IMG/VR virus record: IMGVR_UViG_3300023174_000621 | Location: 1 to 24,098 of that record | Reading direction: 5' to 3' (one strand) | Length of the DNA stretch: 24,098 nucleotides | Source: a virus | Shown: positions 1,362-12,312 of the stretch, in pieces | Layout of the letters: every line of letters starts with the position of its first letter | How positions within the stretch are numbered: the first letter of the stretch is position 1 | Made by a program: the position numbers and the translations under genes | Notes under the pieces: generated by a model | Databases searched by the model: none | Told to the model about the DNA's origin: nothing | The model's input: the letters and a program-made list of their open reading frames with translations, nothing else

Positions 1362-1779
1362 TTTGATCCTCCAAATACTCGACAATTCCTTTTAACTTAT
1401 AAGCACGAATAGAAGATTGCTGTAACTGAGCATTCAATTCTTCAACTTCTTTCTTATGTTCAGCCTCTAGTTTGTCAAACTTTTCCCTCCACTCCAAGCA
1501 CCAGTTATAGTGCTGTTCGTTTTCTTTAATTTGACTTTTGAGTGACTCATGTAATTCTTTAGAAAGTTTCTCCCAATCTACCTTTTTAATTGAGGCACGT
1601 TTCTTTCTAGCTAAAGAAGCTTTTTCTTGTTTCTCTATCTTAATAAGTGATTTTGCATACTGCTCAGGAGACACGCCCAGCTTTTTACCAAGCGCTATTT
1701 GAGTATTGGTGAGGCGCACAGTCTTAACCTTTGGTTTGTTCTTAGATCCAACGGGTCGTCCACGCTTTACACTTCCCAT
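1333..1779 (-). CDS. Basic coiled-coil protein with AT-hook-like N-terminus, 148 aa
   Basis: The N-terminus holds K-R-G-R-P (residues 5-9) in a Lys/Gly-rich stretch, resembling an AT-hook, the minor-groove DNA-binding motif. Residues 20-40 could form a short helix-turn-helix-like segment, and about 60-140 is a heptad-like Lys/Glu coiled coil. ATG 1779 follows a GGAG site that lies in the end of the upstream gene (13-base overlap). Likely nucleic-acid binding by composition; no enzyme domain is seen. Confidence 0.75.
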   Translation of the reverse strand: MGSVKRGRPVGSKNKPKVKTVRLTNTQIALGKKLGVSPEQYAKSLIKIEKQEKASLARKKRASIKKVDWEKLSKELHESLKSQIKENEQHYNWCLEWREKFDKLEAEHKKEVEELNAQLQQSSIRAYKLKGIVEYLEDQIEHNTVRSN

Positions 1780-4826: not shown

Positions 4827-4876
4827 GGGGTGTGGTGTTTATTCTCCTCACACGTGCATCACACCCCCCCTTTTTT
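4827..4876 (+). terminator. Intrinsic terminator after 4457-4774
   Basis: GGGGTGTGGTG (4827-4837) pairs with CATCACACCCC (4857-4867), ten Watson-Crick pairs and one G-T, followed by CCC and six T residues (4871-4876). The loop is 19 bases. It would stop transcription from the upstream gene before the promoter at 4919. Confidence 0.72.
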
Positions 4877-4918: not shown

Positions 4919-4947
4919 TTGCATTTTCCCAAAGTCTTTCCTATACT
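4919..4947 (+). promoter_or_regulatory. Rightward promoter of the replication operon
   Basis: TTGCAT (4919-4924), 17-base spacer, TATACT (4942-4947). Transcription would begin near 4954, so the structured element at 4968 lies at the very 5' end of the transcript and the first coding region (5302) follows a leader of about 350 bases. The other rightward promoter (17399) also uses TTGCAT and a 17-base spacer. Confidence 0.75.
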
Positions 4948-4967
4948 GATTACGCTGAGTGGGAACT

Positions 4968-5047
4968 CGGTGTAAAATTCTGGACAGATAGACCGTTATG
5001 GTCTGTTGTTTCGCACAACGTAAGTTATGTCCAGGGAATTTACGCTG
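4968..5047 (+). ncRNA. Structured leader RNA: three-way junction
   Basis: The outer stem runs 4968-4986 against 5028-5047 (about 18 pairs including G-U, with a bulged A at 4977 and two bulged G at 5034-5035). Inside are two hairpins: AGACC-GTTAT-GGTCT (4990-5004) and GTTGT-TTCGC-ACAAC (5005-5019). Paired positions were checked base by base. No match to tmRNA, RNase P, SRP, 6S RNA or a tRNA was recognised. It starts about 14 bases after the predicted transcription start, so it is likely a cis-acting leader element; a free small RNA is the alternative. Confidence 0.65.
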
Positions 5048-5059
5048 TGTTATATCCTA

Positions 5060-5093
5060 GAAACGACAGACTATAGCGGTCTTTTTTCGTTTC
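5060..5093 (+). terminator. Terminator-like hairpin in leader (possible attenuator)
   Basis: AGACT-ATAGC-GGTCT (5068-5082) is a 5-bp hairpin with a 5-base loop, followed directly by six T (5082-5087). Flanking GAAACGA (5060-5066) and TCGTTTC (5087-5093) are also complementary. The inner stem is short, so termination strength is uncertain. Bases 5066-5082 can pair without interruption with 4990-5006, which would abolish the hairpin. Confidence 0.5.
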
Positions 5094-5301
5094 CAGCCTT
5101 GGTATGTTGAGCGGATAAAACGCCAGCGACATAGCGAGTAAGCAGACTGGGGGTAAGTGGATGTGATACTGCACAAGTAGGTGGCGAAGATAGTGCCTAC
5201 TCCACGCAAGACTGTCGAGTGCTGTGGCTCCGAAAGAGAAACGGTTAAAGGCGCACTAGGTAGGCTAAGTGCGCTCACCAAAAGAGAACCTTGATATAAC
5301 T
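5094..5301 (+). other. Untranslated leader, second half
   Basis: No convincing gene. Small inverted repeats are present: AGTAGG/CCTACT (5176-5181 and 5196-5201) and a clean hairpin GCGCACT (5251-5257) with AGTGCGC (5268-5274), loop 10 bases, ending 27 bases before the ATG at 5302. The latter could influence ribosome access to the sigma-like gene. No riboswitch class recognised. Confidence 0.4.
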
Positions 5302-5472
5302 ATGAGAGAAGATAAGAAGAATAAGGATTGGAACATGACTCAAGAAGAAGTCGCTCAGGCATTTGGGATTACTAGGAATTACGTGCAACAAATAGAAAAG
5401 CGGGCGATTGAGAAGTTACGGGCGGAATTAAAAAAACGTGGGATTAAAAAACAGGATCTATTGGAAGAGTAG
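5302..5472 (+). CDS. Sigma-70 region-4-like HTH protein, 56 aa
   Basis: The core MTQEEVAQAFGITRNYVQQI followed by EKRAIEKLR closely resembles region 4.2 of sigma70 factors (E-E-I-A-x-x-x-G-V-T-R-x-x-V-R-Q-I-E-x-x-A-L-x-K-L-R), the helix-turn-helix that reads the -35 box. Nothing of regions 1-3 is present. It could be a small transcription regulator that mimics or competes with region 4, or just a DNA-binding protein. Start: ATG 5302 gives 56 aa; ATG 5335 has a better AAGGA site and gives 45 aa; a GTG at 5269 is less likely. First gene after the structured leader. Confidence 0.75.
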   Translation: MREDKKNKDWNMTQEEVAQAFGITRNYVQQIEKRAIEKLRAELKKRGIKKQDLLEE

Positions 5473-11732: not shown

Positions 11733-12312
11733 TTTCTTCCTCGTCTTCCCACTCTGCCATGTTCCATGAGATACAAAACTCCTCATCTATCTCTGATGGA
11801 ATGTTCTTATTTACCCACTTTGAATTGCCTTTGATGTCGTAGGATTCATCTCTGCCGTTCTCCCAGATACCGCAAAAGCAACAACCTCCCTCGTAATACA
11901 TGGCTCTTATCTCAAATCCCATTTCGCACAATTTTGCGTATGCCTCGGTAGGCGGACTCCACGCAGAATCAAAACCAATTTTTATGGTGTTATTCTTGAT
12001 GTCCTTTAAGGTCAGTTTGTCATACCCATCTCCATGACCTATGTCCCACTTTGTCCCCCATTCTGCTACGCAGAAGTCATACCAATCTGTATAGCCAAAA
12101 AACTCCCTGTTCAGTTTTTGCTTTTCCTCCAAGAGTCTTTGCTCATAACTTTCTTTAGAGCCGACATTACCCGATACTGTGTCCGTTAGTTCCTTGGGGA
12201 TTGGAATAAACTCTCTCAATAACCCGTTCCTGTTATATCCCCTTACGACCCGTTTCATCATCATCTTGTCTTTATGGGAAATAGTTAGTGTATTACTGCA
12301 CCAATTAGGCAT
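11710..12312 (-). CDS. Api92/DUF1281-like ferredoxin-fold protein, 200 aa
   Basis: Starts MPNWCSNTLTISHKDKMMMK after GGAG: the M-P-N-W-C-x-N opening is characteristic of the Api92/YubB-like (DUF1281) family. Further family marks are F-D-S-A-W-S-P-P near the middle and the Y-Y-E-G-G-C-C-F-C-G segment. These proteins have a ferredoxin-like fold, occur on phages and plasmids and have no firmly known function. The C-terminal tail is very acidic (EWEDEEENAETEES). Confidence 0.85.
   Translation of the reverse strand: MPNWCSNTLTISHKDKMMMKRVVRGYNRNGLLREFIPIPKELTDTVSGNVGSKESYEQRLLEEKQKLNREFFGYTDWYDFCVAEWGTKWDIGHGDGYDKLTLKDIKNNTIKIGFDSAWSPPTEAYAKLCEMGFEIRAMYYEGGCCFCGIWENGRDESYDIKGNSKWVNKNIPSEIDEEFCISWNMAEWEDEEENAETEES

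Follow-up and report, generated by a model that had tools for sequence, protein, structure and literature searches.

An RNA module that comparative sequence analysis marks out as a well-supported structured family, absent from Rfam 15, occupies the predicted 5′ leader of an early phage transcript and recurs in dozens of environmental phage contigs. We studied it in a window (the whole stretch of DNA analysed, 24,098 nt), which is a fragment from an uncultivated tailed phage deposited as a virus record. Computation establishes the fold and its covariation, places the module at the start of a predicted transcript and reveals no recognisable second promoter behind it. With moderate confidence, we lean towards the view that the module attenuates transcription of the large RNA and the replication operon that follow, with a pairing between the 5′-hairpin loop and a bulge (loop × bulge pairing) opposing a long terminator hairpin (P2).

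The module precedes RF02932, an RNA family without an assigned function, and two further large non-coding RNAs. It thus gives a concrete handle on the roles of these RNAs, because it probably gates their synthesis and so decides whether they are made. Moreover, its fast-changing yet complementary loop-bulge pair makes a clean natural experiment in RNA co-evolution.

Genomic context of the leader

The window carries genes for an Erf-like annealing protein, an exonuclease, a ParB-like protein, a helicase, a PAPS-reductase-like protein, a primase, a terminase and a portal protein. The promoter that the first-pass annotation had placed at position 4919 is present in the sequence, with TTGCAT and TATACT boxes lying 17 nt apart. 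The non-coding stretch behind it (promoter at 4919–4947) runs to a small gene encoding a sigma-region-4-like helix-turn-helix protein (5302–5472). Positions 4954–5087 constitute the 5′ leader of the predicted early transcript, just upstream of the RF02932 RNA. The features of this region are as follows:

4919–4947, plus strand: sigma-70-type promoter, read from the sequence (TTGCAT at 4919–4924, 17-nt spacer, TATACT at 4942–4947)
4954–4971, plus strand: HP1, the 5′ hairpin with which the predicted transcript begins, from folding and a covarying homologue in relatives; UGGGA at 4960–4964 can pair with the bulge
4980–4986, plus strand: linker strand CUGGACA, pairing with the apical loop (second long-range pairing, in 12 of 30 representatives)
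4990–5012, plus strand: 5′ arm of P2, from folding, containing the small hairpin 4990–5004; 18 of 21 homologous pairs show double-sided changes
5013–5050, plus strand: inner hairpin P3 with the apical loop, from folding and alignment; UGUCCAG at 5028–5034 pairs with the linker
5051–5059, plus strand: 9-nt bulge of the 3′ strand, UAUAUCCUA; UCCUA at 5055–5059 pairs with the HP1 loop segment
5060–5082, plus strand: 3′ arm of P2, from folding, containing the small hairpin 5068–5082
5082–5087, plus strand: U-tract directly after P2, from the sequence; a T run is also found in the module loci
5100–5220, plus strand: Betaproteobacteria-1 RNA (Rfam RF02932), 77.9 bits against a gathering threshold of 49.4
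5221–5290, plus strand: conserved 3′ extension of the RF02932 RNA, with a phage-specific direct repeat at 5230–5240 and 5278–5288

The stretch 4954–5093 is one domain of a longer RNA, as RF02932 starts 12 nt past the U-tract. The RF02932 model match begins at 5100 and leaves the leader (4954–5087) uncovered, and no Rfam family matched the leader at E ≤ 1 either in the window or in one relative (L110). Conserved sequence continues beyond the Rfam model, to about position 5290.

A terminator-like hairpin (GGGGTGTGGTG/CATCACACCCC, followed by six T) can be read at 4827–4876, between the upstream gene and the promoter. GC skew was uninformative as an origin marker, since it tracks gene direction.

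Fold of the leader in the window

Two small hairpins had been described in the leader, AGACC-GTTAT-GGTCT (4990–5004) and AGACT-ATAGC-GGTCT (5068–5082). Both are present and their complementarity is exact, as are the 17 gap-free pairs, two of them G-U, between 4990–5006 and 5066–5082. The helix extends past these to 23 uninterrupted pairs (4990–5012 with 5060–5082, three G-U). The complementarity of the hairpin loops is real, but it is not independent evidence, because complementary arms that are each partly palindromic produce such loops automatically.

The long helix is the minimum-energy state, at −56.5 kcal/mol against −35.8 kcal/mol for the two-hairpin state (a difference of about 21 kcal/mol). 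The 140-nt stretch as a whole folds at −57.5, compared with a shuffle mean of −31.95 (z = −7.1; 0 of 200 shuffles as good). The first-pass annotation held that the long helix would remove a terminator. This turned out otherwise: the helix ends at 5082, where the second small hairpin also ends, and abuts the same six U, so that it is itself a terminator-like form.

The bases immediately behind the U-tract (5087–5096, TCGTTTCCAG) are able to pair with an inner segment of the P2 3′ arm (5057–5066, CTAGAAACGA); a similar pairing was seen by eye in L095 and L090.

The same architecture in other phages

Relatives were sought via the helicase (80 viral loci), via RF02932 in their records (21 of 49) and via a core DNA pattern; together with a scan using covariance model R1, this gave 109 non-identical RNA loci. 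About 45 phage loci carry the same leader architecture in largely different sequence: a −10 box, a short 5′ hairpin, a long one whose 3′ strand has a 7-nt bulge, a U-tract and a large RNA. Every module locus lies on a metagenomic contig, and the loci were collected by way of a single helicase family and short core patterns; the breadth of the module is thus under-sampled and relatedness is incompletely controlled.

For counting, we used a list of 40 module loci assembled by eye from folds, with 35 found automatically and others checked individually. A run of 3–9 T follows P2 in 40/40 of them, a count that is not independent, as the T run helped to locate P2. The P2-type stems are 20–25 bp long and near-perfect.

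Outside these contigs, BLASTN of the leader region of the window against 50,697 phage records gave no match. The leader and RNA regions of three relatives matched a single phage record, Acidovorax phage AP1, which had no module match. In AP1 (OM049504.1, about 11880–12045; L343), an unannotated RF02932-like RNA lies between the primase and the next gene. Module model R2 found nothing in 399 Burkholderiales genomes, a search with stricter filters and no positive control that shows little.

Covariation of the long helix and of the loop × bulge pairing

The alignment of 19 leaders (A2) comprises 46 pairs with 95% of cells paired, and its covariation is 0.662 against 0.250 after shuffling. Double-sided compensatory changes were observed in 36 of the 46 pairs, and all but one of the 7 loop × bulge pairs are among them. 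Taken alone, the seven loop × bulge pairs reach 0.842 against 0.249 shuffled, and their signal collapses when the partner is slid by a single column of the 19-sequence alignment.

The 5′-hairpin loop is complementary to the bulge in differing sequence from phage to phage (GTGAAGT/ACTTCAC, CTGGAAC/GTTCCAG, TTGATAC/GTATCAA, ATCGAAC/GTTCGAT, GTGAGAG/CTCTCAC and others). Among 30 representatives less than 80% similar, the summed score of loops with their own bulges was 255.6, while the maximum over 20,000 partner permutations was 204.0 (0/20,000 reached the observed value). Further loci, including some in contexts other than RF02932, show loop-bulge pairs as well, these having been picked by eye. 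A second pairing, between the linker and the apical loop, occurs in 12 of the 30 representatives (CUGGACA/UGUCCAG in the window) and was likewise reached by none of 20,000 permutations.

In the window itself the loop × bulge match is weak (UGGGA/UCCUA, 5 bp), relatives having mostly 6–8 bp and the close relatives L095 and L090 having 6 and 8 bp, respectively.

A covariation check had been proposed for the hairpins of the leader. It was passed strongly in the relatives, but the signal resides in the long helix and the loop × bulge pairing and not in the small hairpins, which are weakly conserved (69% of cells paired; covariation 0.278 against 0.189 shuffled). The arm palindromes were accordingly dropped as a conserved feature, their signal being weak and absent in many families.

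As a long inverted repeat adjoins the promoter, one may ask whether the element works at the level of DNA, as a cruciform or a protein-binding palindrome. We regard this as extremely improbable. G-U pairs are frequent at conserved positions, and the covariance model scores about 100 bits on the plus strand against about 30 on the minus strand; therefore the conserved entity is the plus-strand RNA. Covariation between loop and bulge is, besides, no feature of a palindrome.

Promoters and the RNAs behind the module

A TANNNT −10 box lies upstream of the 5′-hairpin loop in about 26 of 28 relatives, its end 10–15 nt from the loop, which makes HP1 the predicted 5′ end of the transcript. We also scored −10 boxes, counting extended −10 elements, directly before RF02932. 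Scores of at least 5 were found in 1/40 module loci against 15/27 module-less loci, and scores of at least 4 in 5/40 against 27/27. The gap from the U-tract to the RF02932 RNA is usually below 20 nt in module loci. Since these loci mostly have no recognisable promoter before the large RNA, the RNA is most simply made by read-through past the U-tract, and this is the main reason for the attenuator reading.

The same observations bear on two other explanations. In the first, RNase III would cut the long stem and thereby create the 5′ end of the downstream RNA, and the U-tract would not terminate. Such a processing element would fit near-perfect stems of 20–25 bp and the promoter that lies right at the start of the RNA in module-less relatives; it leaves the conserved U-tract and the covarying loop × bulge pairing unexplained, and we consider it quite improbable. 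Alternatively, the product could be a stand-alone small RNA of about 130 nt (HP1, long hairpin and U-tail) that acts in trans, the downstream RNA arising from occasional read-through. A compact covarying fold that has its own promoter at HP1 and ends in a U-tract would suit this role, as would the occurrence of the module before three different downstream RNAs, and the IsrK locus of phage Gifsy-1 works likewise (PMC4825925). Against it, the module stands directly before a large RNA without a recognisable promoter of its own in nearly all loci, an association partly forced by the way the loci were collected. We judge a small RNA unlikely, while giving it more weight than the processing site.

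Many RF02932 loci have no module, and the module in turn is not confined to RF02932. Model R2 finds it before a second large non-coding RNA in RF02932-less phages (L021, L073, L075, L349, L369, L408 and L421), with weaker matches in L352 and L077. In a further reading, the module is an inseparable 5′ part of a larger functional RNA, the kissing of loop and bulge being a tertiary contact and the U-tract a spacer. Conservation extends to the HP1 stem as well as to the loop × bulge pairs, and the two would be able to coexist, as this reading requires; yet the module is separable, being missing from many RF02932 loci and present before unrelated RNAs, so that we find an integral domain very improbable.

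Several observations concern the large RNAs themselves. The second one (GUGACCCGCNCCUCUGAGUA ... GGGUCAACGGGUAAG) is conserved at L073:1905–2310, L075:2642–3075, L021:4565–4895 and about 15 other helicase loci; it occupies the same position as RF02932 and is sometimes preceded by the module. In L405, a stretch that matched its pattern proved to be coding. In L420, a strong module copy is followed by a third non-coding stretch, GC-rich and located at 1520–1745 (minus strand), and a replication-protein-like gene lies further downstream. Searching the second and third stretches against Rfam gave no match beyond chance. In L006 (2440–2870), an HNH endonuclease-like gene, recognised by eye from the translation, lies between the module and RF02932.

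The direct repeat in the 3′ part of RF02932 is specific to each phage (AAAGGTATCAT twice in L167, CCAGGCGGATAAA twice in L091). The mean longest shared word is 6.8 nt, compared with 4.9 nt after exchange of copies among phages (5,000 permutations, maximum 5.4).

A possible attenuator

An attenuator had been proposed among other resemblances. An attenuator-like 5′ leader with alternative states and a U-tract is supported, and a GC-containing hairpin followed by a U-tract (P2 and the T run) is found in the 5′ leader of the window and of the module loci; the conserved parts are nonetheless the long helix and the loop × bulge pairing.

We predict that P2 with the U-tract terminates transcription, that the loop × bulge pairing opposes this and that the ratio of outcomes is regulated. 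Transcription would start at HP1. As the RNA emerges, the HP1 loop, joined by the linker in the subgroup of the window, would pair with the bulge and the inner strand, trapping the 5′ arm of P2 and leaving it with only its own small hairpin; this would be the read-through form. Once the 3′ arm emerges, the two arms of P2 would join in the long helix directly before the U-tract, giving the terminator form. The ratio of the two forms might be set by a phage or host signal, or by folding speed alone.

Folding of successive prefixes of the window gave a compatible order. HP1 and the small hairpin of the 5′ arm form first; for prefixes ending at 5059–5066, the best fold pairs 4960–4986 with 5028–5059 around that small hairpin; from about 5072 onward, the P2 helix is best. 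Because the two long-range pairings are colinear in the prefix hairpin, loop × bulge and linker × apical loop may form one antiterminator helix in this subgroup. A comparison of pre-terminator folds in 30 loci favoured the nested pairing in 30/30, a result of little weight, as the compared sequence was cut close to the HP1 stem.

Some findings count against the attenuator. The terminator form is favoured by about 20 kcal/mol at equilibrium, and a switch could therefore operate only through kinetics or with the help of a factor. A 23-bp helix with an interior of about 47 nt might take longer to close than short terminators usually do. About 18 of the 30 representatives lack the linker pairing; in families with a short linker, only a pairing of 7–8 bp could oppose P2, and it could equally be a kissing contact within the terminator form, because the HP1 stem is conserved too (2 of 3 pairs covary). 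A conserved HP1 stem agrees with a kissing contact inside a single folded RNA no less well than with a switch between exclusive states. The 5-bp loop × bulge match of the window also speaks against an attenuator, as does the automatic search, which picked a partner other than the HP1 loop for its bulge.

A more speculative extension, to which we give little credence, treats the 7-nt loop-bulge pair as a phage-specific barcode. The terminated leader might then act in trans on related leaders, and the synthesis of early or replication RNA would be subject to RNA-based exclusion or to self-limitation. RF02932 and the two undescribed classes of large RNA might be interchangeable parts of a single system by which these phages control replication.

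Comparison with known systems

The P4 CI RNA and C4-type antisense immunity RNAs are encoded by phages and regulate early expression through base pairing between RNAs, using sequence specific to each phage. The module resembles them in using phage-specific sequence in RNA pairing. We found no antisense partner RNA for it, and among the phage antisense RNAs of this kind that have an Rfam family, none matched the window or the scanned relative L110. RF02932 adjoins the module downstream and marks the same transcript, its Rfam model spanning 5100–5220 alone.

A resemblance to the put RNA of phage HK022, which suppresses terminators lying downstream, had been suggested as well. Put is an RNA of about 70 nt with two stem-loops, present in two copies downstream of PL and PR, and acts on RNA polymerase via the β′ zinc-binding domain (PMC9378689). 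Like put, the module is structured and opens an early phage transcript, as predicted here. In layout it departs from put, since its roughly 135 nt hold HP1, the long hairpin, the loop × bulge pairing and a terminal U-tract, where put has two stems in about 70 nt. As to paired copies, counts of RF02932 in these fragmentary records gave one in most of them and two in G001.

IsrK of prophage Gifsy-1 is both a small RNA and an mRNA; it has a promoter and a terminator of its own, occurs as a short and a read-through isoform and adopts alternative structures, and it acts on translation in a locus controlling a Q-like antiterminator (PMC4825925). Phage or prophage origin, a promoter, a terminator (putative in the module) and predicted alternative structures are points of likeness, and the architecture of the module is compatible with two isoforms, as predicted here. 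The two differ in that IsrK acts on translation and in that no pairing of a 5′ loop with a bulge is described for it in the published abstract (PMC4825925).

With attenuators that have mutually exclusive terminator and antiterminator hairpins, the module shares a 5′ leader, a U-tract after a stable hairpin and an upstream pairing that may compete with that hairpin. Unlike attenuators in general, it has a very long putative terminator stem, and the candidate competitor is a 7-nt phage-specific match between loop and bulge at the 5′ end of the transcript.
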